DNA of 22,766 bases from a virus, in IMG/VR virus record IMGVR_UViG_3300048694_000664, positions 1 through 22,766 of that record; one strand, 5' to 3'. Below the pieces are notes generated by a model. It was not told the DNA's origin and made no database searches. It saw only the letters and a list, made by a program, of their open reading frames with translations. Positions 1 through 17,233 of the stretch are shown here, one piece after another (position 1 is the first letter of the stretch; every line of letters starts with the position of its first letter). Both the position numbers and the translations under genes were made by a program.

Positions 1-45
1 TAACCAACGCACCTCTCCATTTTCAATCCATCCCACTGCTTTCAC
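1..45 (-). CDS. Start of a small unknown protein, cut by window edge
   Basis: Fifteen codons remain, reading MKAVGWIENGEVRWL with a GTG start at 45. The GTG overlaps the stop of the preceding gene as GTGA, the same junction seen between the paralogue at 5541-5753 and its downstream neighbour. The open frame and the coupling support a real gene. The fragment is too short to identify, and the rest lies outside the window. Confidence 0.4.
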   Translation of the reverse strand, partial: MKAVGWIENGEVRWL

Positions 46-251
46 GATTCAACTCCAAAATGTTCTTTTAATACTGCACTTGCTTCATATTCTTGATAAT
101 CATCAAGGGCAACTTCTTGTTCAAGGATAAATCCCTCAACAAGCATAGCACATTCCTTGACAATCAACTCGGCGAACTTTTCCAAATCAATGTGATGCTC
201 GCTGTACCGATGATAGCATTGTTCAGCAAGTTCTCGAATTCGTTTGTTCAT
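42..251 (-). CDS. Small paralogous family protein, copy 1 (EHFGVE family)
   Basis: A 69-residue protein, one of six copies in this window of a family with fixed edges. The N-terminus is MNKRIRELAEQ, the central core FAELIVKECA, and the C-terminus LKEHFGVES; the rest varies. It looks mainly helical, with no signal peptide or membrane segment. The start overlaps the end of the zinc-binding-type gene upstream (248-475), and its end overlaps the next gene as GTGA. Function is unknown. The family seems typical of small early proteins of aquatic tailed phages, but that is recollection and not shown by the sequence. Confidence 0.85.
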   Translation of the reverse strand: MNKRIRELAEQCYHRYSEHHIDLEKFAELIVKECAMLVEGFILEQEVALDDYQEYEASAVLKEHFGVES

Positions 252-475
252 TTATCGAGTCCTTTGATCCACTCGAATTTTTTACCTTCTTCGTAGTACT
301 CTCGGGCACGGCCCGAGTAGTACATAATCTCGCCACATTGGGTACACTTATAACGATGTAGGTCAATATCTACAGTTGTACTAACTGTTTCGTACTGCCA
401 CTCTCCGTCTATTTCTTCACCAAAATAGTCTCGAGTAACCCAACGTTCAGTTGTTCTTTCGTGTCTACAACTCAT
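248..475 (-). CDS. Small zinc-ribbon-like protein of unknown function
   Basis: A 75-residue protein with C3 and H5 near the N-terminus (SCRHE) and a CxxC at C44/C47 (KCTQCGE). Together these could hold one zinc ion. Between them lies an aromatic, acidic stretch, and after the CxxC a YYSGRAREYYEEGKKFEW tail. ATG at 475 overlaps the stop of the preceding gene as ATGA. The metal site is inferred from spacing only; no enzymatic motif is visible. A small nucleic-acid- or protein-binding role is possible but unproven. Confidence 0.8.
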   Translation of the reverse strand: MSCRHERTTERWVTRDYFGEEIDGEWQYETVSTTVDIDLHRYKCTQCGEIMYYSGRAREYYEEGKKFEWIKGLDK

Positions 476-693
476 TCTGGTACCTCAACAAGTTGGAAGA
501 TTTTATAGGTGCGTTTGTTCTTGCCCTTGTTGTCGGGTTGATTCTGACAATAATCACGGAAGTTGCGGGCCTGTTCCATTGTGCCGTAGAATGTTTCGCT
601 ATGGTAACAATAAAGCCCTACTGAGCCGCTGTCGCCTTCCCAGTAGAAGCCTACACCGTACATGAACTTTTTAGCCTGTTTCTTTTTAGCCAT
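472..693 (-). CDS. Small unknown protein, relative of the 11122-11364 protein
   Basis: A 73-residue basic protein (starts MAKKKQAKKF). It contains FYGTMEQARNF and ends with YKIFQLVEVPE. The same order of motifs, FYGT, an EA/EQAR helix, then a YxxFxLxVP strand at the C-terminus, occurs in the 80-residue protein at 11122-11364, so the two are probably paralogues. The start lies at the end of copy 2 of the EHFGVE family. No function is recognised. Confidence 0.8.
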   Translation of the reverse strand: MAKKKQAKKFMYGVGFYWEGDSGSVGLYCYHSETFYGTMEQARNFRDYCQNQPDNKGKNKRTYKIFQLVEVPE

Positions 694-899
694 TATTCAA
701 CTCCGAAATGTTCTCTAATCTCAGCATGGGCCCTATCACCAAATTGATTATAAAACCCTAACACTGTGTCAGCACATTCCCGAACAATCAACTCGGCGAA
801 TTTTTTTACTTCCGCTTCGTTCTCGTAATTTCCATTGATATCTACAGCACCATAGATACCAGCCTTGGCCGCAATTTCTTTAATTCGTTCGTTCATCAT
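693..899 (-). CDS. Small paralogous family protein, copy 2 (EHFGVE family)
   Basis: A 68-residue protein that begins MMNERIKEIAAKAG, carries the core KFAELIVRECA and ends IREHFGVE. Two tandem ATG codons allow a start at 899 or 896. By analogy with the other copies, the second ATG (TGATG overlap with the previous stop) may be the one used. Its first 38 or so residues are identical to copy 5 at 5541-5753, and a 112-base stretch of DNA is exactly shared; only the C-terminal third differs. Function unknown. Confidence 0.87.
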   Translation of the reverse strand: MMNERIKEIAAKAGIYGAVDINGNYENEAEVKKFAELIVRECADTVLGFYNQFGDRAHAEIREHFGVE

Positions 900-904
900 T
901 CAAC
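793..904. repeat. 112-base exact direct repeat, first unit
   Basis: Identical to 5647-5758. It covers the 5' half of copy 2 of the EHFGVE family and the end of copy 3. Exact identity over 112 bases, including third codon positions, points to recent duplication or gene conversion. Confidence 0.9.
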
Positions 905-1135
905 TCCGAAATGTTCTTTAATCTTACCACCAACATTATAATCAGTGCCTTCGTTATGTTCCATGTGTTGATTCGCAACATCCGCACATTCCCGAACAAT
1001 CAACTCGGCGAACTTTTCAATATTGTTGTCCCACAACCCAATGGATTCTCGGTATTGTACCGGATTGCTCGTTAGAGTGTGAGTGGAGAAATGTCCGCCT
1101 GCCTGTTTAACAAGTTCTCGAATTCGTTCGTTCAT
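896..1135 (-). CDS. Small paralogous family protein, copy 3 (EHFGVE family)
   Basis: A 79-residue protein with the family edges MNERIRELVKQAGG and KIKEHFGVE and the core EKFAELIVRECAD. The open frame extends upstream to 1234, but the family alignment fixes the start at the ATG at 1135. That ATG falls at the end of the preceding gene (1132-1401), in the usual overlapped arrangement. The middle (about residues 15-38) is unlike the other copies. Function unknown. Confidence 0.87.
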   Translation of the reverse strand: MNERIRELVKQAGGHFSTHTLTSNPVQYRESIGLWDNNIEKFAELIVRECADVANQHMEHNEGTDYNVGGKIKEHFGVE

Positions 1136-1401
1136 GATTCCACCTTTGTTAGTCGGTCCCAAACCAAGCCGTGCCAGGGTCGGAATCCAATGGTTTCTCC
1201 CATCCAGTTTATGTGCTTGACCATCTCTGCCCAATCACCTTGGCTATCTTGATACACCACCCGGCAAGGGCCAAATATATTCCGGCACTCCTCATATACC
1301 TGTTCAGCATCGTTGGTGACACTGCGCCCACCGAGATCCAGGTCCCGGATGAACACAATGTTGCCTTCTCGCCTAACAAATTCCCAGCGGCTTCTGCTCA
1401 T
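1132..1401 (-). CDS. Unknown small protein
   Basis: An 89-residue soluble protein (MSRSRWEFVRREGN...). It looks like a small alpha/beta fold: strands around FVRREGNIVFIRDLDLGG, a helix around AEQVYEECRN, then a strand around CRVVYQD. It starts with ATG at 1401, overlapping the stop of the bL12-like gene as ATGA, so the two are translationally coupled. No family is recognised. Its position directly after the bL12-like gene may be informative, but nothing in the sequence ties it to the ribosome. Confidence 0.8.
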   Translation of the reverse strand: MSRSRWEFVRREGNIVFIRDLDLGGRSVTNDAEQVYEECRNIFGPCRVVYQDSQGDWAEMVKHINWMGETIGFRPWHGLVWDRLTKVES

Positions 1402-1781
1402 ACTTCAAATCCTACTCGACGCAGGCCCACAACGGCCACACTGTAATCTTGTGGTCGAACTGTGAGGCTCATGGGTTTGCCTAACTCGACCATGTCAGAC
1501 GCATCCTTGGCTTCCTTGAGACCCAGTCCAGTCCAGTTGCGAATCTCTTTGATACGGGCCACACGGTCAGTGTTGGGACCTACCCGGCGCAACACGATCC
1601 TGTTGTTGTGAGTGCCTGTGAGCATGGCAAAGAAGATTTGCCCTTTCACATCCGGGTCCAAGGTGCCGGCAATGGTTTCCCACAGCCGCATGCCTTCATC
1701 GGCACCGTAGGCTTCTGTGATGCTTCGCATAAAATGCAAACCATTTGCAATGACGGCGTCCTTGTGTTCTTCGGGAATCAT
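1398..1781 (-). CDS. Ribosomal protein bL12 C-terminal-domain-like protein
   Basis: A 127-residue protein. Residues about 61-127 match the bL12 (L7/L12) C-terminal domain, with the hallmark helix TGLGLKEAKD at 84-93 preceded by RIKEIRN and a final VGLRRVGFEV strand. In bacterial ribosomes this domain forms the stalk that recruits translation GTPases. The first 60 residues (AYGADEGMRLWETIAG...DVKGQIFFAMLTG) do not resemble the bL12 dimerisation domain and may be a phage-specific module. The start at 1781 is chosen because AAAGGA lies just upstream and ATG overlaps the previous stop as ATGA; a longer frame to 1835 lacks this support. A role in redirecting host translation is inference. Confidence 0.85.
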   Translation of the reverse strand: MIPEEHKDAVIANGLHFMRSITEAYGADEGMRLWETIAGTLDPDVKGQIFFAMLTGTHNNRIVLRRVGPNTDRVARIKEIRNWTGLGLKEAKDASDMVELGKPMSLTVRPQDYSVAVVGLRRVGFEV

Positions 1782-2020
1782 TGATTTTTCCTTTTTAACA
1801 GCCAGAACGTAACTTCCTCTGCAGGAATCACACACATTTCCTTGCTAAACTTATTGACGGGCCGAGTTGTGGCGCTGGGGTCAGCCAACATGATTTTTAC
1901 CGTAGCGCCACCATTGTTACGAGATTTACCCAATCCTAGAACTTGGTAGACGTTGGCATAGAACGCTACAAAGTCACCCACACGGATCGGGCGATCAATG
2001 ATGTCAGTGACTTCGTTCAC
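1778..2020 (-). CDS. Small SH3/KOW-like unknown protein
   Basis: An 80-residue beta-rich protein. The stretch RPIRVGDFVAFYANVYQVLGLG, about residues 10-31, is typical of small SH3-like barrels that begin with a VGDxV turn. ATG at 2020 overlaps the stop of the 239-residue protein upstream as ATGA, and its own stop overlaps the bL12-like start. The fold assignment rests on pattern only. No function is recognised. Confidence 0.78.
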   Translation of the reverse strand: MNEVTDIIDRPIRVGDFVAFYANVYQVLGLGKSRNNGGATVKIMLADPSATTRPVNKFSKEMCVIPAEEVTFWLLKRKNQ

Positions 2021-2736
2021 GCAAACTCCCGGTCAGCAAGCTTGTTCCACATCACTTGTTTTTCGCGGTAGCGAGCCAGGCCCGGCCAGTCAGCGGCAAA
2101 GATATTGAAACTATAACCGAATAATTGGACATAGCACTTGTGTTCTTTGCTGTAGTGCATACCACCACCACTGCCAGAGCCAGTGTAAGCACGAGGTCGC
2201 GTTCGGTGACTACCAAAGCCGCCAAAGAGATTGCCTCCTAGGTAAACACCATCCCACTCCTTGGGCCACTCGATCAGCCATTCAATGTGGCCACTCCAGC
2301 CAGGATAACCACGCGGTGCGCCCGGGACACGGCCACCCCAGTTGGTCATACCATTGTGCGGGCATGAGTGGCTGTTGCTAACTGATTCGCTCCATGCCAG
2401 ATTAAATTCAGTAAACTCCAGCAGTTTGGGACAGGGCATGGGAATGCCTTTGCCCCTGAAAGCCTTGCCAACTCGTTCCCAGTCATAGTGATTGTGACGT
2501 GCCGCTTCGGCCCAGAACAGGTGCTGGTTGTTGATAACCATAACAGCCCAGTCTTCTAGGCATTGCTCACGCTCGTACAGCGGAGCCCACTCAGCATCAG
2601 CCTGTTCGCGAGCAATAGTCAAACGTTTTTGCTCAAGACGGTGACGTGCAAGTTTACGCAGATGGTTCTGATACTTCTTTTTGTCTTCAAAGATCTTACC
2701 ATCTGCTTCTGATTTGTATGCTGTGATAACGCTCAT
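2017..2736 (-). CDS. Unknown 239-residue protein
   Basis: The N-terminal 60 residues are charged and helical (KIFEDKKKYQNHLRKLARHRLEQK in part), probably a coiled coil. The remaining two thirds are rich in Gly, Trp and aromatic residues, including LGGNLFGGFGSHRTRPRAYTGSGSGGG near residues 168-194, suggesting a loop-rich beta domain. Cys/His residues are scattered without a clear zinc motif. It is the longest gene in the left third of the window and sits in the run of small early genes. No family is recognised. Confidence 0.82.
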   Translation of the reverse strand: MSVITAYKSEADGKIFEDKKKYQNHLRKLARHRLEQKRLTIAREQADAEWAPLYEREQCLEDWAVMVINNQHLFWAEAARHNHYDWERVGKAFRGKGIPMPCPKLLEFTEFNLAWSESVSNSHSCPHNGMTNWGGRVPGAPRGYPGWSGHIEWLIEWPKEWDGVYLGGNLFGGFGSHRTRPRAYTGSGSGGGMHYSKEHKCYVQLFGYSFNIFAADWPGLARYREKQVMWNKLADREFA

Positions 2737-2737
2737 A

Positions 2738-3004
2738 TTACGCTTTCAAAATGTTAATCAGTTTATTGTGCTCGTATGCTTGCTCTGCAGCCTCGACCAA
2801 CTTGTTCATGTAAGCCGCATAGTCCTCGGCACGGCGTGCTTGTTCATCTTTGTCGTGTCGGGGACCAACCGGAAATTCTGCAACGGTCCGATAACCGTCC
2901 TCGTCTTCTTCTTTGCTATAGCGATCGGTTACAAAATAAAGGATGAGTTCTCCACGACCGTCTTTGGTTTCCCAAACTTTATATCGTCGTTTCTTGTCAC
3001 TCAT
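2738..3004 (-). CDS. Unknown small charged protein
   Basis: An 88-residue protein (MSDKKRRYKVWETKDGRGE...). The first half looks like beta strands, the second half (RRAEDYAAYMNKLVEAAEQAYE) like a long amphipathic helix. ATG at 3004 overlaps the preceding stop as ATGA, and the next gene starts two bases after its stop. No recognised domain. Confidence 0.8.
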   Translation of the reverse strand: MSDKKRRYKVWETKDGRGELILYFVTDRYSKEEDEDGYRTVAEFPVGPRHDKDEQARRAEDYAAYMNKLVEAAEQAYEHNKLINILKA

Positions 3005-3387
3005 GCAACATCTCCGAACTTCTGTTTCAGTTTTTCAAACAACTCACGTTCTTCTTGCTCCGTGGCCAACGCTGTGGCAAGTGCCCGAGCCTTTTTGGTT
3101 TCACGAGCTTGGCGAGCCTTTTCTTTCGCGGCCCATTCCTTGGCCACACGCTTGTCGTATTCAGCATCGGTTTCCCAACGATCCACACGCACGTAGACCT
3201 CCAGGCCACCGTCATGGCCATAGTATTCGGTTTCGAATTTTACTTGCTTGTCATGGGTGAAGATTTCTTCTTCGTACCGATGCAACATGCTTTGCAGGTC
3301 AATGATCACATCGTCTAGGCTACGACCGTCAAACAAGTCAACAATGTCAACGTGATCGTTACGATCTAACACACGCTTTTTACTCAT
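3001..3387 (-). CDS. Unknown coiled-coil protein
   Basis: A 128-residue protein. The first 75 residues contain beta-type sequence such as VKFETEYYGHDGGLEVYVRVDRWE. The C-terminal part (AKEWAAKEKARQARETKKAR onwards) is Ala/Lys/Glu/Arg-rich and should form a long helix or coiled coil. Similar charged helical tails occur in the neighbouring proteins at 3740-4102 and 4186-4500. Its start overlaps the end of the 54-residue gene upstream by eight bases. Function unknown. Confidence 0.82.
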   Translation of the reverse strand: MSKKRVLDRNDHVDIVDLFDGRSLDDVIIDLQSMLHRYEEEIFTHDKQVKFETEYYGHDGGLEVYVRVDRWETDAEYDKRVAKEWAAKEKARQARETKKARALATALATEQEERELFEKLKQKFGDVA

Positions 3388-3544
3388 CTACTGCCTCAAC
3401 TTTCTCCTGCGGAACCAAACGCAGGTAAGGTTCCATGTAAACGCCTTCCTTGACCGTGAACAACTCCGGCCCCATGTTGGGCACTGAATAGACCACAGTT
3501 CCGGGTGCCATGTCGTAGTGTTGTTTGGTTATTACGTATTTCAT
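3380..3544 (-). CDS. Small unknown protein (54 residues)
   Basis: Begins MKYVITKQHYDMAPGTVVYS and ends VPQEKVEAVDE. The frame is supported by coupling at both ends: its ATG overlaps the stop of copy 4 of the EHFGVE family as TGATG, and its stop lies within the start of the next gene as ATGAGTAA. The sequence looks like a small beta protein. No function is recognised. Confidence 0.75.
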   Translation of the reverse strand: MKYVITKQHYDMAPGTVVYSVPNMGPELFTVKEGVYMEPYLRLVPQEKVEAVDE

Positions 3545-3738
3545 CATTTGACTCCGAAATGTTCTTTAATCATAGCCGCATAGTGATGAGGTCCTGGATT
3601 TACATAGGCCATTGCTAAACATTTATCAGCACATTCTCGCACAATCAACTCGGCGAATTCTGCCTTGTCCTCTTCAGCCCAGGTTAAACCAACTCTACCA
3701 TTTAGTCCTTGGACGATTTCAAAAATTCGTTCGTTCAT
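3544..3738 (-). CDS. Small paralogous family protein, copy 4 (EHFGVE family)
   Basis: At 64 residues this is the shortest copy: MNERIFEIVQGLNG at the start, core EFAELIVRECAD, end MIKEHFGVK. The variable segment between start and core is only about 14 residues, compared with up to 26 in copy 3. It starts one base after the stop of the coiled-coil gene upstream. Function unknown. Confidence 0.86.
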   Translation of the reverse strand: MNERIFEIVQGLNGRVGLTWAEEDKAEFAELIVRECADKCLAMAYVNPGPHHYAAMIKEHFGVK

Positions 3739-3739
3739 T

Positions 3740-4102
3740 TTACAACCCCAACACTTCGCGTTCTTCTTGGCTGAGTTTATTCAGTGCGGCGCTACGGACA
3801 TTGGCACGGCGCTCGGCTTCGGCACGTTTTGCTTCCTTGTCCTCCACGTTGTATTCCAGTTCCCACAGACTGGTATCAGCAAACTCAGTCCACGCAGGCA
3901 GAACGTAGAAGGTAGTGTAGCGGTTATCACGGTCGCTGAGCACAAACTTAGCGTCCTTGACTTCGATCTCAAAGTTCATTTTAGTGGCACGATCCAGGAC
4001 TGCCATCATGCGCTCAGTGTAGGTGGACTTGGCCAGTTCCACACGCTTTTCGAGCTCTGCGGCTTCGCGGGCCAGTCGTTCTGCTTTGGTTTCTCGTGCC
4101 AT
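3740..4102 (-). CDS. Unknown coiled-coil protein, promoter-proximal
   Basis: A 120-residue protein, highly charged and helical (MARETKAERLAREAAELEKR). A central beta-like stretch reads FVLSDRDNRYTTFYVLPAW, and the tail RRANVRSAALNKLSQEEREVLGL resembles the end of the 4186-4500 protein. The start at 4102 is preceded by AAGGAG at 6 bases; the frame is open to 4165 but has no such site there. It is the first gene behind the strong promoter at 4133-4161. Function unknown. Confidence 0.85.
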   Translation of the reverse strand: MARETKAERLAREAAELEKRVELAKSTYTERMMAVLDRATKMNFEIEVKDAKFVLSDRDNRYTTFYVLPAWTEFADTSLWELEYNVEDKEAKRAEAERRANVRSAALNKLSQEEREVLGL

Positions 4103-4132
4103 TTGCGGCTCCTTATTTCTTACTATGCTTAT

Positions 4133-4161
4133 ATTATAGCAAATTGGGAAATATTGGTCAA
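4133..4161 (-). promoter_or_regulatory. Sigma70-type promoter
   Basis: On the minus strand, -35 TTGACC (4161-4156) and -10 TATAAT (4138-4133) are separated by 17 bases. It faces the gene at 3740-4102, about 30 bases away, and lies just behind the hairpin at 4168-4190. The spacing and -10 are ideal for the host housekeeping sigma factor, as expected of a phage early promoter. Confidence 0.85.
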
Positions 4162-4167
4162 CCAACG

Positions 4168-4190
4168 AGTAGTACTACAAAAGTACTACT
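4168..4190 (-). terminator. Hairpin, probable terminator or attenuator
   Basis: A perfect 9-base stem AGTAGTACT / AGTACTACT with a 5-base loop. The left arm on the coding strand contains the TAG stop of the gene at 4186-4500. The same stem and loop recur at 6755-6783. On the minus strand it is followed by CGTTGG, not a U-run, so termination in this direction may be weak; T-rich flanks on the other strand would favour stopping + strand transcripts. Confidence 0.6.
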
Positions 4191-4500
4191 TTTTCTTTAG
4201 TCCCAACAGGGCTTTTTCCTCGTCGGTTAGTCGTGCCAGCAGTCGCTCTTTGGCTTCCTTGCGGTCTTGACGAGCCTGTGCTTCGGCTCGAGCTTTGCGG
4301 TCAGCTTCTTTGTGTGTGGTCCACCACTCACGGATCTCATCATCCCGGAGCAACAGGAAATCTTCCTTGCCCATTTCTTCCAGTGCCGCCAGGGCCTTAC
4401 AGGCAATACGAGCCAGTTTGTCGGCTTCGTTTTTGAGCCGCTTGATGTCTCGATCGGTGCTGGTCCGAGCCCAGTTTGTGTCATAACTCATGCAAGGCAT
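4186..4500 (-). CDS. Unknown coiled-coil protein
   Basis: A 104-residue protein. After a short MPCMSYDTNWARTSTDRD lead it is almost wholly charged helix, rich in Ala/Lys/Arg/Glu, ending LLARLTDEEKALLGLKKK. The start at 4500 is fixed by AGGAGG four bases upstream; the frame continues to 4587 without a site. The tail L..LxxEEkxLLGL is shared with the protein at 3740-4102, so the two may be distant paralogues. The stop codon lies inside the hairpin at 4168-4190. Confidence 0.82.
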   Translation of the reverse strand: MPCMSYDTNWARTSTDRDIKRLKNEADKLARIACKALAALEEMGKEDFLLLRDDEIREWWTTHKEADRKARAEAQARQDRKEAKERLLARLTDEEKALLGLKKK

Positions 4501-4501
4501 A

Positions 4502-4663
4502 TTACCTCCTAAGTGTTTTCCAAATTTTCTTTGCTTGTTCTTGCCGGTGTTGTTTGCAATTTTTGCTACAGAACTGAGCCCATCCACGTTGTCTATCTGC
4601 TACTCTAGCAGTAAACAGGCCCTCGCAATGTTTGCACTGGTAAGAGCCTTTTAGACCCCTCAT
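4502..4663 (-). CDS. 53-residue putative zinc-finger protein
   Basis: Sequence begins MRGLKGSYQCKHCEGLF and contains CKHC at about 10-13 and CSKNC at about 32-36, a CxxC...CxxxC arrangement separated by about 18 residues that can bind one zinc ion. The remainder is basic (RQEQAKKIWKTLRR), consistent with nucleic-acid binding. ATG at 4663 overlaps the previous stop as ATGA. AGGAGG at the end of the gene serves the next gene. The zinc assignment is inferred from spacing. Confidence 0.78.
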   Translation of the reverse strand: MRGLKGSYQCKHCEGLFTARVADRQRGWAQFCSKNCKQHRQEQAKKIWKTLRR

Positions 4664-5085
4664 ACTTCCTCTTCTTCGTATTCTTCTTCGTCTGCGGCAG
4701 TTTCGATTTGCACATGTCCGAACTTCAGCAATCCGTAGTCTGCTTCCACTTCAAAAGGTTGTTCAAAATCTACAATAGCGCCCAACTGCACAAGGCGTTC
4801 AAGGTCGTAAGTTTTATCTTGGATGTCTTCCACACGAATACAACCAATGCTTCCGGAGTCCACACTATGGTCGGTGCCAATATTGCTCCGGTAAGAGCCA
4901 TCGCCGTATGCAGTGCCAAAACTAGCAAAGCGACGACCGTCTGCTAGCGTAAACTCACCTTCCACTTGCCTCTCATAATTTTGACCGGGCACATAAGGGA
5001 AGAACAACTCGCAACACTCTTTCCACTCGTTGTGCATTACATAACACAAGTCGCCAATGTAGTATCGGCCAGCGGGCATGGTCAT
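4660..5085 (-). CDS. Unknown phage protein with PAGRYYIGDLCY motif
   Basis: A 141-residue protein starting MTMPAGRYYIGDLCYVM. It holds the runs FASFGTAYGDGSYRS and VDSGSIGCIRVEDI and has a very acidic tail (DEEEYEEEEV). It looks like a globular beta protein without membrane segments. The start at 5085 has AGGAG seven bases upstream and overlaps the previous stop as ATGA, favouring it over the ATG at 5112. I recall related proteins of unknown function in phages and bacteria but cannot name the family. Confidence 0.8.
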   Translation of the reverse strand: MTMPAGRYYIGDLCYVMHNEWKECCELFFPYVPGQNYERQVEGEFTLADGRRFASFGTAYGDGSYRSNIGTDHSVDSGSIGCIRVEDIQDKTYDLERLVQLGAIVDFEQPFEVEADYGLLKFGHVQIETAADEEEYEEEEV

Positions 5086-5351
5086 TTCAAGTCTCCTTTG
5101 AGGGTGTGCCACATTTTAGGATCACATCCGAGATAGATGTGATACTTTTGATAATTTCTCCAGCGACTCAATCGGTTTACTCTGGTTTCGATCCAGTCAA
5201 ATAATGAGTTACGAAACCAAAACGGATTGACAATTGCTACAATCAGCGCCAACAGCACAGGCACAATGGCCACTGCAACAATAAGCCAATGGAATGCCAT
5301 AGCGCGATAGTAGTTGCCTTCGCCGGGTTTGAGTTCGATTTCTTTGTTCAT
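5082..5351 (-). CDS. Small single-pass membrane protein
   Basis: An 89-residue protein. Residues about 20-43 (FHWLIVAVAIVPVLLALIVAIV) form one clear transmembrane helix. The N-terminus (MNKEIELKPGEGNYYRA) is hydrophilic. The C-terminal 45 residues are basic and aromatic (RVNRLSRWRNYQKYH), probably cytoplasmic. It could act at the inner membrane, for example in superinfection exclusion, but nothing specific is recognisable. Confidence 0.8.
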   Translation of the reverse strand: MNKEIELKPGEGNYYRAMAFHWLIVAVAIVPVLLALIVAIVNPFWFRNSLFDWIETRVNRLSRWRNYQKYHIYLGCDPKMWHTLKGDLK

Positions 5352-5352
5352 G

Positions 5353-5544
5353 TTAGTCCATCAAGTTGTAAATTCGCTCGGTCCAATAACTGTCATAGCT
5401 CTGGCACTGCTCTGCTATTTTACCCACTTCTGCACTTTTTCGCAAGTAGGTTCGAGCATTCTTGACAGCTTGCAGTTGCTCTATAATTTGATCAATGTGT
5501 GCATCCATTTGATCATCTAGTTGGGTACGAAAAAGTTTGGTCAC
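5353..5544 (-). CDS. Small helical unknown protein, GTG start
   Basis: A 63-residue protein beginning MTKLFRTQLDDQMDAHIDQI and mostly amphipathic helix. It starts with GTG at 5544, which overlaps the stop of copy 5 of the EHFGVE family as GTGA, so translation depends on coupling. Its stop is one base before the next ATG. Function unknown. Confidence 0.75.
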   Translation of the reverse strand: MTKLFRTQLDDQMDAHIDQIIEQLQAVKNARTYLRKSAEVGKIAEQCQSYDSYWTERIYNLMD

Positions 5545-5753
5545 GATTCAACTCCGAAATGCTCTTTTAGATTTCGTTCTTCCAGAATACCAAATCCTTC
5601 AACACCTCGGCGGTGTAAATGTGCGGCACATTCTCTCACAATCAATTCGGCGAATTTTTTTACTTCCGCTTCGTTCTCGTAATTTCCATTGATATCTACA
5701 GCACCATAGATACCAGCCTTGGCCGCAATTTCTTTAATTCGTTCGTTCATCAT
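5541..5753 (-). CDS. Small paralogous family protein, copy 5 (EHFGVE family)
   Basis: A 70-residue protein: the MMNERIKEIAAKAG start and FAELIVRECA core are identical to copy 2, then a different segment (HLHRRGVEGFGILEERN) and LKEHFGVES. The first 112 bases, including the start region, are an exact duplicate of DNA at 793-904. Two adjacent ATG codons precede it; the first overlaps the previous stop as ATGA, the second as TGATG. Function unknown. Confidence 0.87.
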   Translation of the reverse strand: MMNERIKEIAAKAGIYGAVDINGNYENEAEVKKFAELIVRECAAHLHRRGVEGFGILEERNLKEHFGVES

Positions 5754-5758
5754 TCAAC
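5647..5758. repeat. 112-base exact direct repeat, second unit
   Basis: Identical base for base to 793-904. It covers the 5' half of copy 5 of the EHFGVE family plus the start junction. Just outside the unit the copies diverge: one mismatch directly at the left edge, then unrelated 3' gene halves. Confidence 0.9.
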
Positions 5759-5923
5759 ATTCTTATTTGATATCTCAGTCTTACCATCTGGCCGCTCAAC
5801 CCGCTGTCTGCGTTGGCAGTTGATAGGACCAGGCATAGGGTTAGCGAATACTTTTGCCAATCTATCAAATGCCACTTCGTCTCCCGGTAGCTGATCACGC
5901 CCTACTAATTTACTCAATTCCAT
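5750..5923 (-). CDS. Small unknown protein between two family copies
   Basis: A 57-residue protein, MELSKLVGRDQLPGDEVAF at the start and TEISNKNVE at the end, hydrophilic. It is coupled on both sides: ATG at 5923 overlaps the stop of copy 6 as TGATG, and its TGA overlaps the start of copy 5. No function is recognised. Confidence 0.72.
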   Translation of the reverse strand: MELSKLVGRDQLPGDEVAFDRLAKVFANPMPGPINCQRRQRVERPDGKTEISNKNVE

Positions 5924-6126
5924 CATTCAACTCCGAAATGTTCTTTTACTTCACGCATAGCCACATCAATGAATTCATAGCGACCCATTTCCTTGATACA
6001 TTCTCGAACAATCAACTCGGAGAATTTTTCAATTTCATCGAGACCAGCCAAACATTCAGCACCGCGATGTGTTGATTCAGTTTCTTTGAATTTGGCTAAC
6101 AATGTTTGAATTCGTGTGTTCATCAT
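5923..6126 (-). CDS. Small paralogous family protein, copy 6 (EHFGVE family)
   Basis: At 67 residues this is the most divergent copy: MMNTRIQTLLAKF start, core EKFSELIVRECIK, end EVKEHFGVE. The start overlaps the stop of the 47-residue gene upstream as ATGA. The core and C-terminus are conserved, while the N-terminal signature has drifted (MNTRI for MNERI). Function unknown. Confidence 0.86.
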   Translation of the reverse strand: MMNTRIQTLLAKFKETESTHRGAECLAGLDEIEKFSELIVRECIKEMGRYEFIDVAMREVKEHFGVE

Positions 6127-6266
6127 ATCAATGTTCCTTCAATGTCTTTTTCAACGATCTTCCAAAGGTTCCAACCCTTGATGCTGTCAATGTGTGCCTG
6201 CGCCTGCTCTTGAGTCAGAAACACCGAGTCGATCTTGTCGTTGCGGATCACAATATAGACGGTCAT
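6123..6266 (-). CDS. 47-residue MTVYIV-type small protein
   Basis: Begins MTVYIVIRNDKIDSVFLTQEQ and ends KDIEGTLI. It predicts a beta hairpin followed by a helix (QEQAQAHIDSIK). The protein directly upstream (6263-6388) begins with the same MTVYIV and has the same layout, so they are probably tandem paralogues. Coupled through ATGA overlaps at both ends. Function unknown. Confidence 0.75.
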   Translation of the reverse strand: MTVYIVIRNDKIDSVFLTQEQAQAHIDSIKGWNLWKIVEKDIEGTLI

Positions 6267-6388
6267 AGCACAGCCCTTTCCAAGATTTCGGCATCGTAGA
6301 GATCGCCGTACTCTGATGCCAGAGCTTTCTCGCGACTGTCATAGACACCATACACAGTGCCACGGTAAACAACAATATAAACTGTCAT
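6263..6388 (-). CDS. 41-residue MTVYIV-type small protein
   Basis: Begins MTVYIVVYRGTVYGVYDSRE and ends DAEILERAVL. A good Shine-Dalgarno (AAGGAG) lies upstream, inside the end of the GIY-YIG gene, whose TAA is one base before this ATG. Its TGA overlaps the next ATG. It is probably a paralogue of the protein at 6123-6266. Confidence 0.75.
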   Translation of the reverse strand: MTVYIVVYRGTVYGVYDSREKALASEYGDLYDAEILERAVL

Positions 6389-6389
6389 T

Positions 6390-6716
6390 TTATTCTCCTT
6401 TGACGCGAACGTCGGTGTTGAGTGCAGGCCGGTACTCACGTATCAGTTCACGCTCTAACTTGTGGGCCGCATCCTTGCCACGCACCACGTCGATGATAGC
6501 ATAGTTAACAGCGCCTTCGCCAGCAACACGAATTGCTTGGTACAGGTTCCAGCTCTTGTCTTCGGTGCGCGAGCGATAGATATGCTTGTTGATGCGACTA
6601 CGCAGGCTCATGTTGATAGTGCGCTGAGTCTTGGCAGTGATACCAATGTAGTACTCCAGTCCAATTTGGATGAAGTAAACAATGTGGCTACGATCCGAAC
6701 GCTTTTTTCTTAACAT
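6390..6716 (-). CDS. GIY-YIG family endonuclease
   Basis: A 108-residue protein that is essentially a lone GIY-YIG nuclease domain. It has VYFIQI (GIY-like strand, about 13-18), YYIGIT (YIG strand, 22-27), Arg residues at 39-41 followed by NKHIYRS, the catalytic-type acidic residues in [11 protein letters not shown] (Glu88/Glu90) and a closing Asn100 (RPALN). No separate DNA-binding domain of the homing-endonuclease type follows. It is the first gene behind the strong promoter at 6723-6751. It may cut host or competitor DNA or act as a selfish nuclease; which one is not shown. Confidence 0.88.
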
Positions 6717-6722
6717 GTGTAT

Positions 6723-6751
6723 ATTATAGCAAAATGGCTATTTCGGGTCAA
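6723..6751 (-). promoter_or_regulatory. Sigma70-type promoter
   Basis: -35 TTGACC (6751-6746), 17-base spacer, -10 TATAAT (6728-6723) on the minus strand. The start of the GIY-YIG gene is only 7 bases past the -10, so the transcript leader would be nearly absent or translation would begin at the very 5' end. It sits directly behind the hairpin at 6755-6783. Confidence 0.85.
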
Positions 6752-6754
6752 CCA

Positions 6755-6783
6755 AAAAGTAGTACTACAAAAGTACTACTTTT
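6755..6783 (-). terminator. Rho-independent-type terminator
   Basis: A perfect 12-base stem AAAAGTAGTACT / AGTACTACTTTT with a 5-base loop, followed on the minus strand by T. The A/T tracts on both sides make it potentially bidirectional. It separates the gene at 6805-7017 from the promoter at 6723-6751. The same core stem and loop occur at 4168-4190. Confidence 0.75.
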
Positions 6784-6796
6784 CGGGGTTACAAAA

Positions 6797-6814
6797 TGTA
6801 AACTTTAGTTTACA
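6797..6814 (-). terminator. AT-rich hairpin at gene end
   Basis: TGTAAACT / AGTTTACA, an 8-base perfect stem with a 2-base loop, followed by TTTTGT on the minus strand. It includes the TAA stop of the gene at 6805-7017. With the next hairpin at 6755-6783 it would make a double terminator. Confidence 0.6.
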
Positions 6815-7017
6815 GAGCCTGCGTAGTCGGCCCTTACATACCAATCTGGGGCACTTGCGGCGGTATTGTGCTTGGTGTTGTAGTCGATAGCAGCCTGTTT
6901 AGCCTCTGCTTCGTTGTCAAAATACCACGTATCCCAATGGCTCCGACCACTGAACCGATCATACTCCGTTAGGACGACTTTGAAGGCAACCACCGAGGGT
7001 TTTGCAATTCTGGGCAT
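6805..7017 (-). CDS. Unknown small protein
   Basis: A 70-residue soluble protein starting MPRIAKPSVVAFKVVLTEYD. It contains a strand-rich first half, then a helix (NEAEAKQAAIDYN) and a C-terminal WYVRADYAGSVN strand. This beta-helix-beta layout is common in small phage proteins. It forms its own short transcription unit between the promoter at 7060-7088 and the double hairpin at 6755-6814. Function unknown. Confidence 0.82.
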   Translation of the reverse strand: MPRIAKPSVVAFKVVLTEYDRFSGRSHWDTWYFDNEAEAKQAAIDYNTKHNTAASAPDWYVRADYAGSVN

Positions 7018-7059
7018 TGTGTGCTCCTTTCCTATGGGTTATTGGGATGGTGTAATTAC

Positions 7060-7088
7060 AGTATAAGCGATCTTGTTTTTCTGGTCAA
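7060..7088 (-). promoter_or_regulatory. Sigma70-type promoter
   Basis: -35 TTGACC (7088-7083), 17-base spacer, -10 TATACT (7065-7060) on the minus strand. The -35 overlaps the TGA stop of the upstream gene (7085-7450). It would drive the small gene at 6805-7017 after a leader of about 35 bases. Confidence 0.75.
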
Positions 7089-7450
7089 CTCTGGGCAAGC
7101 AAGGCCATGAACTTGTCAGGGTTATTAAATAGAGCAAAAAGAGTGGCCTCCTTGCTGCCATACAAGGTCAACACAGGCTTCTTGCCCAGTCTAATATGAT
7201 AGGGACAAGTCAATTTCTTGTCAAGTATCAGCAGGTTTCGGGGAACCACAGCAATGACCACGGGGATTTCGAACTGATAGGATTCGTACTCCAGCAGGTC
7301 CAACAAGTCTCGCCCTTCGGTAGTAAGTCGCAGTCCAGAATCAGTACGCCAATCCTGCCACCAAACCATAAGGGCATGTTCAAAATCAGGACGGTCTTCG
7401 CCCTGAAGTTGATCAATCAGTCGCTGAGTGAGTTCTTCTTTATTGACCAT
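7085..7450 (-). CDS. Unknown phage protein with LRLTTEG motif
   Basis: A 121-residue protein. Motifs are WWQDWRTDSGLRLTTEGRDLL around residues 30-50, then PRNLLILDKKLTCPYHIR and a C-terminal SKEATLFALFNNPDKFMALL helix. I recall proteins of this pattern in many aquatic phages, without a known function. ATG at 7450 overlaps the end of the preceding gene by 11 bases. Its stop is embedded in the promoter at 7060-7088. Confidence 0.83.
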   Translation of the reverse strand: MVNKEELTQRLIDQLQGEDRPDFEHALMVWWQDWRTDSGLRLTTEGRDLLDLLEYESYQFEIPVVIAVVPRNLLILDKKLTCPYHIRLGKKPVLTLYGSKEATLFALFNNPDKFMALLAQS

Positions 7451-7736
7451 TGGGGTATACTGTGTCCCCAGATTTTAGCAACACCACAGTGAACTTGTTG
7501 GTTTTGAACTGGGTGTTGAGTTTGCGACAAAGGTTGATAGCATGGCCGCTGTTGGCAAAACTTACCTTTTTGTACTTTGGTCCAGGAAACTGTGTGAGCA
7601 TGTTGGACGTTTTGAGGTTTATTGGACTGCCGTCAAAGAACACAGCCCACACCCCTTCCGACGCCAGCACTTGCTCGGTCTTGTAAGTTTGTTTGTTGGT
7701 GTGCTCAACCAGCACTTGTGGTTTGGGTCTCGACAT
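7440..7736 (-). CDS. Unknown 98-residue protein
   Basis: A basic protein, MSRPKPQVLVEHTNKQTYKT at the start, with VWAVFFDGSPINLK, YKKVSFANSGHAINLCRKLN and FTVVLLKSGDTVY, suggesting a small alternating alpha/beta fold. It lies between the frameshifted 69-residue gene and the LRLTTEG-type gene. No recognised family. Confidence 0.8.
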   Translation of the reverse strand: MSRPKPQVLVEHTNKQTYKTEQVLASEGVWAVFFDGSPINLKTSNMLTQFPGPKYKKVSFANSGHAINLCRKLNTQFKTNKFTVVLLKSGDTVYPNGQ

Positions 7737-7771
7737 ATTAAACTCCCAGTTTATTTATGACCATAAACTGC

Positions 7772-7981
7772 TCAGTTTTTGAAACTTCCACCTGAAACTT
7801 CCACCTGAATCACACTGTTTTGAACAACCAGTTGCTCGCGCATGGACTCCATGGCCAACAGCAATTTGGTTATGTCGGTGTGTAAATCTTTGGCATCACG
7901 CAAGCTCATAGTGATATCCCTACCACCACGAACTTCTTGTGCTTTGATTAAATCAATAAAACGGTTAATGTGAAGGCTCAT
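7772..7981 (-). CDS. Small helical protein with a frameshifted C-terminus
   Basis: A 69-residue, mainly helical protein (MSLHINRFIDLIKAQEVRGG...). The last residues QVEVSGGSFKN are encoded by two tandem copies of the 13-base unit CAGGTGGAAGTTT. Thirteen is not a multiple of three, so the second copy shifts the frame into an early TGA. Removing one copy would let the protein run on as QVEVSKTEQFMVINKLGV and end at the TAA directly before the next gene (7740-7738), the normal packing here. The ATG overlaps the MazG-like stop. Confidence 0.8.
   Translation of the reverse strand: MSLHINRFIDLIKAQEVRGGRDITMSLRDAKDLHTDITKLLLAMESMREQLVVQNSVIQVEVSGGSFKN
7782..7807. repeat. Two tandem 13-base units
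   Basis: AAACTTCCACCTG occurs twice head to tail (7782-7794 and 7795-7807) at the 3' end of the gene at 7772-7981. This looks like a slippage-type duplication that changes the reading frame. Confidence 0.9.
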
Positions 7982-8367
7982 GAGAATTTGTTAAATGGAT
8001 GCGTTTTTTTAAGATACGGTTTTAGGTCTGGCGCTGTCCAGCCCACAGGTTTCAAGACCTTGCCGTCTTCACGCTTGCGAACCTTGCCTGTTTCTCGGTC
8101 GATCTTGGCAAAGTTAGTACGCATGACTTCTTTCCAGCCACCTTCGCCATCTGCGCCTTTGCTGTGAATGGCACCGATAGTTACAACAAGAATGTCTTCT
8201 AATGCATCGAGTATTTCCAACTCGTCGCCGGCAGCAATTGCTTCCTTGAGCTCTGTTACTTCTTCGTCAATAAGTTTGACATACATCTTAAATTGTTCTT
8301 CGTCGCCTGTGACACTTTGGTCACAAGCTTTCATAAATTTCTCTTGATCACGAAACGGATTGGTCAT
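7978..8367 (-). CDS. mazG: MazG-like nucleotide pyrophosphohydrolase
   Basis: A 129-residue protein matching the all-alpha NTP pyrophosphohydrolase (MazG/dUTPase-like) fold. EExxE occurs in LIDEEVTELKEA (35-39) and a paired acidic motif in EILDALEDIL (Asp54, Asp58); these helices bind the metal ions that support hydrolysis of NTPs to NMP and PPi. Phage MazG proteins may adjust nucleotide or (p)ppGpp pools, or clean damaged or unwanted nucleotides; the substrate cannot be read here. The start at 8367 has AAGGAAC upstream and overlaps the preceding gene by 20 bases; an ATG at 8406 lacks a site. The C-terminal half (VGWTAPDLKPYL) is an extension. Confidence 0.85.
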   Translation of the reverse strand: MTNPFRDQEKFMKACDQSVTGDEEQFKMYVKLIDEEVTELKEAIAAGDELEILDALEDILVVTIGAIHSKGADGEGGWKEVMRTNFAKIDRETGKVRKREDGKVLKPVGWTAPDLKPYLKKTHPFNKFS

Positions 8368-8800
8368 TTGCTTGTTCCTTGGTTTGAAATGGGCCGCGAT
8401 AGGCATAACGCTCTAGCACGATCAGTTTGGGATTTTGTACGATTTTCCAGTTGCGGTGTTGCTTGACTTGATACCAGCCAGCAGCAAACCATGATTTGCT
8501 TTTGCTGAGTTTGGTGAACAGCGGTAACTTGCGCTTGATATCCCACATGCCGTTGTGAGCTCTGCACCCAGTGGGAAACCCATGCACATTGTCAGTTGCA
8601 GATTTGCTTTTCTTTTCTGCTGGTTCAAATTCAATGCCAATGGCTTTTCTAACCATAGGTATTGTTTTGTAAGTGTTTACACGATCCAGTATTTTTACTT
8701 CGTAACTGCCATCGGCTGCAACTTGGATGTTGCCTATCTTTTGGTTATTCTGCTTGAGAATCCAAAACTGGTTGGCTATTACTGGTTTTGCTACGATCAT
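8348..8800 (-). CDS. Unknown 150-residue protein overlapping RNase H
   Basis: A basic protein. The N-terminal 45 residues (NQFWILKQNNQKIGNIQVAADGSYEVKILD) look like a small beta sheet. A later part has GFPTGCRAHNGMWDIKRKLPLF and WFAAGWYQVKQHRNWKIVQNPKLIVLERYAYRGPF. The ATG at 8800 lies 56 bases inside the RNase H gene but has AAGGAG six bases upstream, a good site, so the long overlap looks genuine. I recall a similar family in T4-related phages, function unknown. Confidence 0.82.
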   Translation of the reverse strand: MIVAKPVIANQFWILKQNNQKIGNIQVAADGSYEVKILDRVNTYKTIPMVRKAIGIEFEPAEKKSKSATDNVHGFPTGCRAHNGMWDIKRKLPLFTKLSKSKSWFAAGWYQVKQHRNWKIVQNPKLIVLERYAYRGPFQTKEQANDQSVS

Positions 8801-9794
8801 CTAATACTCCTTTGTAAGTTTCATTGAGCCAGTTGCTGATTTGACCAGCTGACTCAGACAGTTTATTCAATTCGAACTTGCCACAAAAACGCATGAAGTG
8901 AACACCAACTTGGCCCACGTCTTTGTGGCTGATTTGTTCGCAAATTGCTTGATCCACAGCAGATTTGATTGTGTCGGGCTGTGCAGTGAGATCAATCAAG
9001 GTGACATTTCGTTCATAGTCGTCCAACACACGATGCTCTTCTCCGTTGTGGTCTGTCCAACGTTGGAGCATCATGTTGTTCCAATTGTATCCTTTACGGT
9101 CTCGGTCAGCAAAGGCCTCACGGAGACCAACTTTATTCTTTGTGCCCTTTTCGCGAACTCCAGGATATGCACTGAATACGTTGTCTGACGTGTCGCCACG
9201 CATGCACTTTTCAAATAGCAGCCAGGCAGGATCCGGAGCGGCTTTTGGCTGTTTAGTTTTCTTATCGTTGATAGCACGGCCCTTGTCGTCAAAGATGCCT
9301 TCGAGGGTAATAAGTTCATCGGTAATACCATTGTACTGTTTTACGTTCGGCGCCACCAGCTGCACATAGTCTGTGTCGCTGGAAATAATCACATGTTCGT
9401 CTTGGGGGTGTAGTGCGATCCAGCGAGCAATAACATCGTCCGCTTCAGCTTCAGGGTGCCGGATAACGCTACAATTTGTTTTTGTTGTCAAGTATTTAGT
9501 GAGCTCATCATAGGTTTCCCAGAACAGCTTGTCCTCTTCTTGCTCAGTTTCGTTCATTTTGCCACGGGCCACAGCTCGATTGGCCTTGTAAGGCTTGTAA
9601 AAATCCTTGCGCCAGCTACGACCTTCCAGTGCGAAAATAACATGGTCGGCACCAAAACGCCGGGCCACTTTGTTCACACTCATCAGCGTGACATGCAAAG
9701 CAAAGCCCACTTTGGTCCACGAATCTGCGGCGCGATGAGCACTGTGTCTAGCACGGAAAAAGGTGTTGGCAGTGTCAATTAGCAGGTATTTCAT
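8745..9794 (-). CDS. rnh: T4-type RNase H / 5'-3' flap exonuclease
   Basis: A 349-residue protein of the FEN-1/T4 RNase H family, which removes RNA primers and short 5' DNA flaps from lagging-strand fragments. Seen are LIDTANTFFRAR (Asp7), SWRKDFYKPYKANR (61-73), EAEADDVIARW (Asp119/120), ISSDTDYVQL (Asp140, Asp142) and MRGDTSDNV (Asp201, Asp204), in family order. Glu57 (FALEGR) stands where T4 RNase H has a metal-binding Asp. It is somewhat longer than the T4 protein (about 305 residues), with a low-complexity tail. It starts at 9794 behind its own promoter, with no clear Shine-Dalgarno. Confidence 0.93.
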   Translation of the reverse strand: MKYLLIDTANTFFRARHSAHRAADSWTKVGFALHVTLMSVNKVARRFGADHVIFALEGRSWRKDFYKPYKANRAVARGKMNETEQEEDKLFWETYDELTKYLTTKTNCSVIRHPEAEADDVIARWIALHPQDEHVIISSDTDYVQLVAPNVKQYNGITDELITLEGIFDDKGRAINDKKTKQPKAAPDPAWLLFEKCMRGDTSDNVFSAYPGVREKGTKNKVGLREAFADRDRKGYNWNNMMLQRWTDHNGEEHRVLDDYERNVTLIDLTAQPDTIKSAVDQAICEQISHKDVGQVGVHFMRFCGKFELNKLSESAGQISNWLNETYKGVLDDRSKTSNSQPVLDSQAE

Positions 9795-9871: not shown

Positions 9872-10339
9872 TCAGGCAACTTCGATCCAGGTATAGTCAC
9901 CTAACCATTTTACCTGGCACACATATTCATAATGTTCAGGGCAACCAGTGTTCCAATCCCCGGGTCCCATGATGCTCAAACGGGTGCAATTGGCTCGAGT
10001 GTCTGTTAGCAACCAATAGACATTGCCGTGGTACACTTGGAAATCGTATTGGGCAGCATGCACCATGTCGGTGATGTCCAATCTGCGTTTGATATCCGCA
10101 GCTTGCTTTTGAAGCACAGCAACCAGTTCCATGATCCTGTTATATTCTTGCTCGGCATGCATCCTGGCAACATTGACCATGATGTCTTTTTGCTTTTCCA
10201 CAGGCACCAAGTCAAACTTGACTCCACCTGCTTCTGTGGCATAAGGAGTTATGTTCCTGTTAAAAAAGTTAACAAGAGTGTTTCCGGTAGCTATGTCAAA
10301 GCTACTCCTCCCTTTGGCAGAGTTGTTTTCGTCGGTCAT
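9872..10339 (-). CDS. DUF2452-like protein
   Basis: A 155-residue protein. The N-terminal half is helical, with a long segment (HAEQEYNRIMELVAVLQKQA in part) that may be a coiled coil. The C-terminal half, HAAQYDFQVYHGNVYWLL...LSIMGPGDWN...YVCQVKWLGDYTWIEV, matches my memory of DUF2452: a G-x-Y-x-L strand, then a P-x-x-W motif and a final D-x-x-W. The family occurs in T4-like phages and has no known activity. ATG at 10339 overlaps the stop of the 30-residue mini-gene upstream as ATGA. The family call is from recall. Confidence 0.72.
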   Translation of the reverse strand: MTDENNSAKGRSSFDIATGNTLVNFFNRNITPYATEAGGVKFDLVPVEKQKDIMVNVARMHAEQEYNRIMELVAVLQKQAADIKRRLDITDMVHAAQYDFQVYHGNVYWLLTDTRANCTRLSIMGPGDWNTGCPEHYEYVCQVKWLGDYTWIEVA

Positions 10340-10428
10340 TCTTGGCAGGCCGGATTTGGAACTTCTAACTCAAACACATGATACTGAGATTTTGTAGTAC
10401 CTGTGTCTCTAAGTAGTAAGTATTTCAT
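10336..10428 (-). CDS. 30-residue mini-gene made from a duplicated gene end
   Basis: Encodes MKYLLLRDTGTTKSQYHVF followed by ELEVPNPACQE. All but the first few residues repeat the C-terminus of the 80-residue protein at 11122-11364, and 57 bases are exactly identical. The frame has a promoter in front (10454-10482), an ATG at 10428 and an ATGA overlap with the next gene, so it is probably translated, if only as a leader for the DUF2452-like gene. It may have lost the original gene's function. Confidence 0.6.
   Translation of the reverse strand: MKYLLLRDTGTTKSQYHVFELEVPNPACQE
10352..10408. repeat. 57-base exact direct repeat, first unit
   Basis: Identical to 11138-11194, with weaker similarity on both sides. 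It lies inside the 30-residue mini-gene. Confidence 0.9.
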
Positions 10429-11121: not shown

Positions 11122-11364
11122 TTATTCTTGGTATGCGGGATTTGGAACTTCTAACTCAAACACATGATACTGAGATTTTGTAGTACCTGTGTCTTTGAGC
11201 AGTTCAAATGTGCGAGCCTGTTCAGCTTCGTGCCTGGTACCATAAAAACCGGGCCCATAGTTTATGGGATTGGTGTTAGACACATACACATAGCTCATGG
11301 TCATGCCTGCTTGTTTGATCACAGTGTAAACTTTGTATGTTGGAGGCGGTTTAAGAGGTTCCAT
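11122..11364 (-). CDS. Unknown small protein, source of the mini-gene
   Basis: An 80-residue protein: MEPLKPPPTYKVYTVIKQAG at the start, a central VYVSNTNP and GPGFYGTRHEAEQAR helix, and a closing YHVFELEVPNP strand. The FYGT...EQAR...FxLxVP order is shared with the protein at 472-693, so they are likely paralogues. Its 3' end is duplicated at 10352-10408. It overlaps the nucleotidyltransferase gene by 14 bases. Function unknown. Confidence 0.82.
   Translation of the reverse strand: MEPLKPPPTYKVYTVIKQAGMTMSYVYVSNTNPINYGPGFYGTRHEAEQARTFELLKDTGTTKSQYHVFELEVPNPAYQE
11138..11194. repeat. 57-base exact direct repeat, second unit
   Basis: Identical to 10352-10408. It encodes the C-terminal part of the 80-residue protein at 11122-11364 and is the likely source of the duplication. 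Confidence 0.9.
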
Positions 11365-13882: not shown

Positions 13883-13883
13883 A

Positions 13884-14720: not shown

Positions 14721-14723
14721 AGA

Positions 14724-15365: not shown

Positions 15366-15378
15366 GGTTTTCTCCTTT

Positions 15379-15609
15379 TTAATTAGATTCGGTTTTGCTG
15401 TTGTCTGCGCCCAACAGTTTTAATATTTCTTGTGTCAATTGATGTTGATGAGCGTTGCTGGTGTAAGCATAGTTATACTGGATTTGAACAAAGTCAAATT
15501 CATCCATGCCTTGATGTTGCATTTTGATATGTACAGTTCCAAACATATCTTTGTCGGCCCAAATTTTAGTAGGCAAAATTTCCACAAGTTCAACAGTTTC
15601 GATGTTCAT
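15379..15609 (-). CDS. Small unknown protein between QueD and YhhQ
   Basis: A 76-residue protein, MNIETVELVEILPTKIWADK at the start and QEILKLLGADNSKTESN at the end, with strands VHIKMQHQG and DFVQIQYNYAYTSN. The start at 15609 overlaps the QueD stop as ATGA and has AGGA upstream, so it is preferred over the ATG at 15630. It is co-translated with QueD and followed by YhhQ, so a link with the deazaguanine module is possible, but the sequence does not show one. Confidence 0.78.
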   Translation of the reverse strand: MNIETVELVEILPTKIWADKDMFGTVHIKMQHQGMDEFDFVQIQYNYAYTSNAHQHQLTQEILKLLGADNSKTESN

Positions 15610-17231: not shown

Positions 17232-17233
17232 GA

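Follow-up and report, generated by a model that had tools for sequence, protein, structure and literature searches.

Exchange of half genes at shared DNA joints in a family of small genes from uncultured phages

In order to characterise a repeated gene family noticed in a viral contig, I analysed the whole of a 22,766-nucleotide stretch (hereafter referred to as the window) from the IMG/VR record IMGVR_UViG_3300048694_000664. Six copies of a small gene are present in its first part, interleaved with other small genes (Table 1). Residues invariant in all copies, numbered in copy 1, are M1, N2, R4 and I5 at the N-terminus, F26, E28, L29, I30, V31, E33 and C34 in a central core, and E63, H64, F65, G66 and V67 near the C-terminus. 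The conservation extends to the DNA, as the 17-mer ACAATCAACTCGGCGAA occurs six times in the window with at most 1 mismatch (4 exact), while 0.05 matches are expected in shuffled sequence with up to 3 mismatches allowed, and none of 100 shuffles reached six.

An earlier note had described these genes as having constant ends and a variable middle. The six copies are indeed present as it described, but the layout is better defined as a start joint (ATGAACGAACGAATT), a variable N half, a core joint (GAAAAGTTCGCCGAGTTGATTGT..GAATGT), a variable C half and a tail joint (GAACATTTCGGAGTTGAA). Exchange is already visible inside the window, since the N halves of copies 2 and 5 are identical in DNA, with identity running 8 nt into the core, after which the C halves are unrelated. 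The TGATG and GTGA junctions between genes, which the note described as looking standardised, are 4-nt overlapping stop/start codons that also join genes outside the family, and are ordinary phage translational coupling.

Table 1. Features of the window discussed in the text.
Position	Strand	Feature	Length	Core joint	Remarks
42-251	-	copy 1	69 aa	150-176	C half (1-147 side) fused to the N half of copy 3 in contig L001
693-899	-	copy 2	68 aa	774-800	shares its N half with copy 5
896-1135	-	copy 3	79 aa	986-1012	N half intact in L001 but joined to the C half of copy 1
3544-3738	-	copy 4	64 aa	3631-3657	one of the rare cases with both halves shared with another contig (L038)
5541-5753	-	copy 5	70 aa	5628-5654	shares its N half with copy 2
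5923-6126	-	copy 6	67 aa	5998-6024	
148-983		stretch present in the window, absent in the otherwise identical L001	836 bp		ends lie inside the cores of copies 1 and 3
772-904		N-half tract of copy 2, repeated at 5626-5758 (copy 5)	133 nt		97% identity; the differences lie in the core
248-475/472-693		overlapping non-family genes			stop/start overlap
1132-1401/1398-1835		overlapping non-family genes			stop/start overlap
4112-4193		PeSL-like element			separate from the joints
6702-6783		PeSL-like element			separate from the joints
6390-6716		gene weakly matching GIY-YIG homing nucleases			

I next searched for relatives of these genes. Pfam and PHROG scans of single copies, and of 108 members, identified no family, with only scattered weak one-off matches among the 108. 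The family is absent from about 50,000 phage records (tblastn against deposited phages gave nothing, or one weak partial hit), but several hundred relatives were found in uncultured phages, with up to 18 copies per phage record. In bacterial genomes 7 hits were obtained, all on short contigs (3-9 kb) of MAGs or assembled bins, and these are probably phage DNA. The genes are accessory and often form clustered arrays.

AlphaFold2 models of copies 2 and 3 (pLDDT 88.3 and 86.7 for the two models) show the same order of helices, and the predicted fold comprises three constant helices and two variable parts. The two models do not agree fully on the variable part, where a clear hairpin is predicted in copy 3 but only weak strands in copy 2. 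A search of solved structures gave no convincing match, as the KH, PII-like and small-terminase hits all have E > 0.4. In contrast, the same predicted fold was identified in uncharacterised proteins of uncultured Caudovirales phages (e.g. A0A6J5T338, Foldseek E 1.2e-5, 35% identity), which are evidently members of this family already in UniProt, although unnamed. No family entry and no description of half-gene exchange was found for these, and literature searches for the motifs, or for half-gene swapping in phages, returned nothing relevant.

I then compared the two halves separately among 340 distinct relatives. Of the pairs sharing at least 60% of a variable half, 100 share only the N half, 102 only the C half, and 3 both. 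These pair counts are not independent of each other, but other small ORFs of the same contigs, used as a control, behave oppositely, with 83 pairs sharing both halves and 22 sharing one. The similarities of the N and C halves are nearly uncorrelated (r = 0.03 to 0.09), and reused N modules nearly always have a new C partner (59 genes, 58 partners), as do reused C modules a new N partner (62 genes, 61 partners), so that nearly every gene is a new combination. The flanks are at background, and the unit exchanged is therefore the half gene. Exchange occurs within and between viruses, but mostly between different phage contigs rather than among the copies of one genome.

Similarity starts and stops at the joints. 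The codon identity of N-sharing pairs drops from 0.94 to 0.09 at core+8/+9, while that of C-sharing pairs rises from 0.09 at core-3. Rare synonymous codons are nearly fixed in the joints but not in the halves (CGA 0.90 against 0.14, TTG 0.85 against 0.24, GCC 0.82 against 0.20, GGA 0.94 against 0.23), and the joint words are essentially confined to the family. The shared halves are under purifying selection, with dN/dS of 0.176 and 0.163.

Two natural experiments further illustrate rearrangement at the joints. The contig L001 is 100% identical to the window over 8663 bp, then switches inside the core from the N half of copy 3 to the C half of copy 1. In a second case, comparison of contig L053 with L073 and L079 shows an array reshuffled between ~96% identical flanks, with the block ends at start, core and tail joints.

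Taken together, these observations support the proposal of the earlier note that conserved edges allow recombination to shuffle the variable parts, with the correction that the unit is a half gene. They are the opposite of what it had named as a refutation, namely old orthologues without recombination at the core. Because the joints are nearly constant in DNA, synonymous positions included, a half gene can be exchanged in frame by homologous recombination (double crossover, or conversion between two joints) with any other copy in the same or a co-infecting phage. A single crossover between two cores removes or joins everything between them, and still leaves an intact fused gene. I consider it likely (probability of roughly 0.75) that this family of small phage proteins is diversified by reassorting half genes in this manner. 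Recombination is probably carried out by the phages' own UvsX/RecA, which was identified in 10 of 15 large records; the other five show no RecA match, but several of these are probably incomplete. That the three constant helices form a scaffold and the two variable halves a working surface is inferred. Similarly, that the proteins are accessory factors binding varying host or rival-phage targets is inference only, as is the suggestion in the note that different host proteins are targeted.

It remains possible, although less likely, that the reassortment is real but merely a by-product of recombination in a multi-copy family with stretches of shared DNA, not selected for and making no useful diversity. 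Any family with conserved segments in many co-infecting phages would exchange at them, the constancy of the joints could be homogenisation, a result of frequent exchange rather than its selected cause, and nothing in this analysis shows a benefit of variety. However, the joints are as constant between unrelated phages as within one at synonymous sites, while halves of common descent have diverged more at such sites (0.68-0.69 against 0.71-0.82), and the halves are kept by purifying selection. This makes selection on the joints plausible, but does not prove it.

A dedicated site-specific recombinase, invertase or diversity-generating reverse transcriptase is very unlikely. While short constant DNA at cassette ends looks like recombination sites, no reverse transcriptase, tyrosine recombinase or ERF was found in the 15 large records, some of which may be incomplete, and serine recombinases were found in only one. 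The breakpoints are spread along the core rather than at one base, and the variation consists of whole-half replacement, not adenine mutagenesis. A GIY-YIG homing nuclease was also considered, but in the other large records GIY-YIG genes do not lie next to the clusters.

All sequences are metagenomic contigs, in which repeats can cause misjoins, but an assembly artefact is highly improbable: the L001 junction shares only 9 nt exactly (GGAATGTGC), shorter than the words assemblers normally use, in most pairs the half alone is shared while both flanks differ, which a misjoin cannot make, and the pattern holds across many samples and at 60-90% identity. Finally, old paralogues evolving fast around three conserved motifs would look alike in a first reading of the six copies, but this is refuted by halves identical or nearly identical in DNA joined to unrelated other halves, by the two sets of rearranged contigs, and by the low dN/dS, which argues against fast protein divergence.

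More speculatively, the family may constitute a phage-borne system of combinatorial protein diversification. Chao1 estimates of 1142 and 916 suggest that about a thousand N and a thousand C modules circulate among uncultured phages as ~100-bp cassettes, which would be joined on a fixed three-helix scaffold, at DNA joints selected for exchange, so that phage populations keep generating new small binding proteins against changing host or rival-phage targets. This remains tentative. Phage genomes are usually seen as mosaics of whole genes or domains, whereas here the exchange points lie within a ~70-aa gene and are visible in DNA. If the variable halves are binding surfaces, this is a natural combinatorial library whose modules, joints and combinations can be read directly from metagenomes. 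It also suggests why such proteins escape family databases, as whole-protein clustering splits them because the halves have different histories.

Interestingly, reassortment of this type is not entirely without precedent. In the HsdS specificity subunits of Type I restriction systems, recombination exchanges either variable domain, and joins or deletes domains, such that alleles are combinations (PMC3077401). As in these, the variable parts described here recombine independently, with breakpoints in conserved DNA between and beside them. The proteins are however not homologous to HsdS, as no match to Methylase_S or other restriction-modification domains was found among the 108 members scanned, they are only ~70 aa, there are no linked modification genes, and they are found in phages, across unrelated genomes. 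Pilin antigenic variation, shufflons and diversity-generating retroelements are also comparable, in that they probably vary protein parts in a repeat-guided or programmed manner, but here there are no silent partial cassettes and no single expressed locus, and every copy is a complete ORF. In T4-type phages, short conserved DNA elements termed PeSLs act as recombination joints for small accessory genes (Arbiol 2010; Comeau 2014; both as cited in PMC4503421). PeSLs are intergenic promoter plus stem-loop elements that move whole genes, while the joints of this family are coding, and the central one divides the gene. PeSL-like elements nevertheless occur in this window too (Table 1).

I first verified the six ORFs described in the earlier note: they are present as described, and all lie on the minus strand. 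They are referred to here as copies 1 to 6, in order of position. The 17-mer named in that note occurs six times with at most one mismatch, while 0.05 occurrences are expected by chance. Most copies are joined to their neighbours through 4-nt ATGA/GTGA overlaps, which the note had described as joints that look standardised, but non-family genes are joined in this way as well, so these overlaps are ordinary. Alignment of the copies shows three conserved segments and two variable ones, with M-N-x-R-I at the start, F-x-E-L-I-V-x-E-C in the middle and E-H-F-G-V at the end (hereafter referred to as the start, core and tail joints). Copies 2 and 5 possess DNA-identical N halves but unrelated C halves, with the switch lying in the core.

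I next gathered loci by similarity to the window's copies, all of them metagenomic. In the first 80 loci plus the window, 329 ORFs match the family profile. The family has no Pfam or PHROG entry, it was not found in about 50,000 deposited phage records, and its nearest predicted structures are nearly all uncharacterised proteins of uncultured Caudovirales phages. Of 15 records searched whole, the richest has 18 copies, and the copies are often clustered. Relatives with the same backbone gene order as the window lack copies at several of the window's positions, so the genes are accessory.

In order to determine whether the two halves are inherited together, identity was computed separately for the variable N and C halves of 226 distinct proteins, with the conserved joints cut away. 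At 60% identity, 44 pairs share only the N half, 48 share only the C half and 1 shares both, with a correlation of 0.03. Adding 114 distinct proteins from further contigs gives 100, 102 and 3 over all pairs, respectively, although such pair counts are not independent. In contrast, small non-family ORFs of the first 80 loci, treated alike but split at their midpoint and without a conserved core, give 83 pairs sharing both halves, against 15 and 7. A recurring N module nearly always has a new C partner (59 genes, 58 partners), and the reverse holds (62 genes, 61 partners). Only 2 of the 44 and 4 of the 48 half-sharing pairs lie on one locus, so exchange is mostly between phages.

I then mapped the breakpoints, using pairs whose shared half is at least 85% identical in DNA. 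For N-sharing pairs, codon identity is 0.94 at core+8 and 0.09 at core+9, while C-sharing pairs are at 0.09 at core-3 and at 0.51-0.91 from core-2 to core+4. In the closest pairs the first mismatch lies at many positions along the core, which fits homologous exchange better than cutting at a fixed base. Identity usually ends within 11 nt upstream of the start codon and 7 nt past the last sense codon, and the flanking DNA is at background. The units are therefore half-gene cassettes of roughly 100 bp.

Two natural experiments show rearrangement at the joints. Contig L001 (L numbers designate contigs of the survey other than the window) is 100% identical to the window over 8663 bp, and then switches, inside the core, so that the N half of copy 3 is joined in frame to the C half of copy 1, and the 836 bp between these are missing. 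The two cores share GAAAAGTTCGCCGAGTTGATTGT, then three mismatches, then GGAATGTGC, and the switch is in the last 9 nt, too short for an ordinary k-mer assembly chimera. In the second case, contigs L053 and L073/L079 are about 96% identical next to a family array on both sides. Within the array, blocks are reordered and rejoined with ends at starts, cores and tails, and the right-hand identical block begins in the tail joint of the last copy.

The joints are also notably constant at the DNA level. The synonymous codon in these is nearly fixed, and is often a rare one: Arg CGA 0.90 against 0.14 in other genes, Leu TTG 0.85 against 0.24, Ala GCC 0.82 against 0.20, Gly GGA 0.94 against 0.23 and Val GTT 0.92 against 0.35. 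Same-residue codon identity between members with unrelated halves is 0.71-0.82 in the joints and 0.41-0.44 in the variable parts, and even halves of common descent reach only 0.68-0.69. This may reflect selection for exchangeability or may be the result of constant exchange, as the data do not separate the two. The exact joint words occur inside family genes 131, 136 and 125 times, and outside 0, 0 and 3 times. Interestingly, the tail joint is found at the end of ORFs that otherwise do not belong to the family, and seems to have captured other gene ends, while in contig L006 a common C module has been captured by another gene.

Independent pairs of shared halves have a dN/dS of 0.176 (N, 50 pairs) and 0.163 (C, 55 pairs), so the modules are maintained as protein, and novelty comes from recombination. 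AlphaFold2 gives confident models for copy 3 (pLDDT 88.3), with a helix at residues 3-11, strands at 15-23 and 26-33, a helix at 36-58 holding the core and a helix at 68-76 holding the tail, and for copy 2 (pLDDT 86.7), with helices at residues 3-12, 27-46 and 51-64 and weak strands between. In these models the start, core and tail joints thus fall on the three helices, the N-variable part on the hairpin, and the C-variable part on the end of helix 2 and the following loop. It is possible that the helices form a scaffold displaying the variable parts, but this is inferred. No convincing solved relative was found.

With regard to the mechanism, ten of 15 large records carry a RecA/UvsX-type recombinase. 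None of these records, whose completeness is not established, has a reverse transcriptase, a tyrosine recombinase or an ERF protein, and one has serine recombinases. General homologous recombination at short shared joints, between copies and between co-infecting phages, is the most economical account, although RecT- and Rad52-type annealing proteins were not included in the search. These are multi-copy accessory small genes in a neighbourhood with strong sigma-70-type promoters, suggesting that they may have early host-takeover or counter-defence roles; this remains an inference.

The logic matches the reassortment of target recognition domains in HsdS genes, where recombination in conserved central and flanking sequences exchanges either variable domain (PMC3077401). 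The family is not HsdS, however, and no paper was found that describes it. T4-type phages are reported to shuffle genes at PeSL elements (cited in PMC4503421), and two elements that look like these lie in the window, but here the joints are coding and divide the gene.

Coordinates of the segments compared with contig L001, and of other features identified in the window and in other contigs
Contig	Position	Feature
Window	984-9646	Segment 100% identical to L001
Window	148-983	Segment missing in L001, with two small ORFs and copy 2
Window	147-1	Segment to which L001 switches
Window	4112-4193 and 6702-6783	82-nt repeat (83%) holding, on the minus strand, a stem-loop AGTAGTACTTTTGTAGTACT followed by TTGACC-17-TATAAT with extended -10; looks like a T4-type PeSL element
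Window	6390-6716	Small protein with a weak GIY-YIG match (E 0.00097, below cut-off), beside copies 5 and 6; homologues in L172, L175 and L176
Window	10338-10417 and 11124-11203	80-nt repeat, 93%; the 3' part of ORF 11122-11364 is duplicated upstream without the rest of the gene
Window	12264-19554	Likely 7-deazaguanine (preQ0) pathway genes: radical SAM QueE-like, PTPS/QueD-like, GTP cyclohydrolase I, Vut_1 transporter
Window	17234-17914	Phage-borne Bax inhibitor-1 family membrane protein (PF01027, E 3.8e-52); homologous DNA in L003 and L004, encoded homologue in L176
L034	10440	Tail joint (KEHFGVEE, exact DNA) at the end of a non-family ORF
L004	8645	Tail joint (KEHFGVEE, exact DNA) at the end of a non-family ORF
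L008	5674	Tail joint (KEHFGVEE, exact DNA) at the end of a non-family ORF
L006	9382-9616	Common C module (GVALSPMLRDMVSRGQAYDLIKQHFGVEE) joined to an N-terminal part that lacks the family start and half of the core
L013	10243-10813	Member with 'KFAALVAAAEREACA...AIRARG'-like C part
L020	11961-12216	Member with 'KFAALVAAAEREACA...AIRARG'-like C part
L058	8423-8648	Member with 'KFAALVAAAEREACA...AIRARG'-like C part

The members from contigs L013, L020 and L058 point to a possible link between this family and a widespread type of small phage proteins. Outside of the family, the likely preQ0 pathway genes suggest that the phage DNA is deazaguanine-modified.
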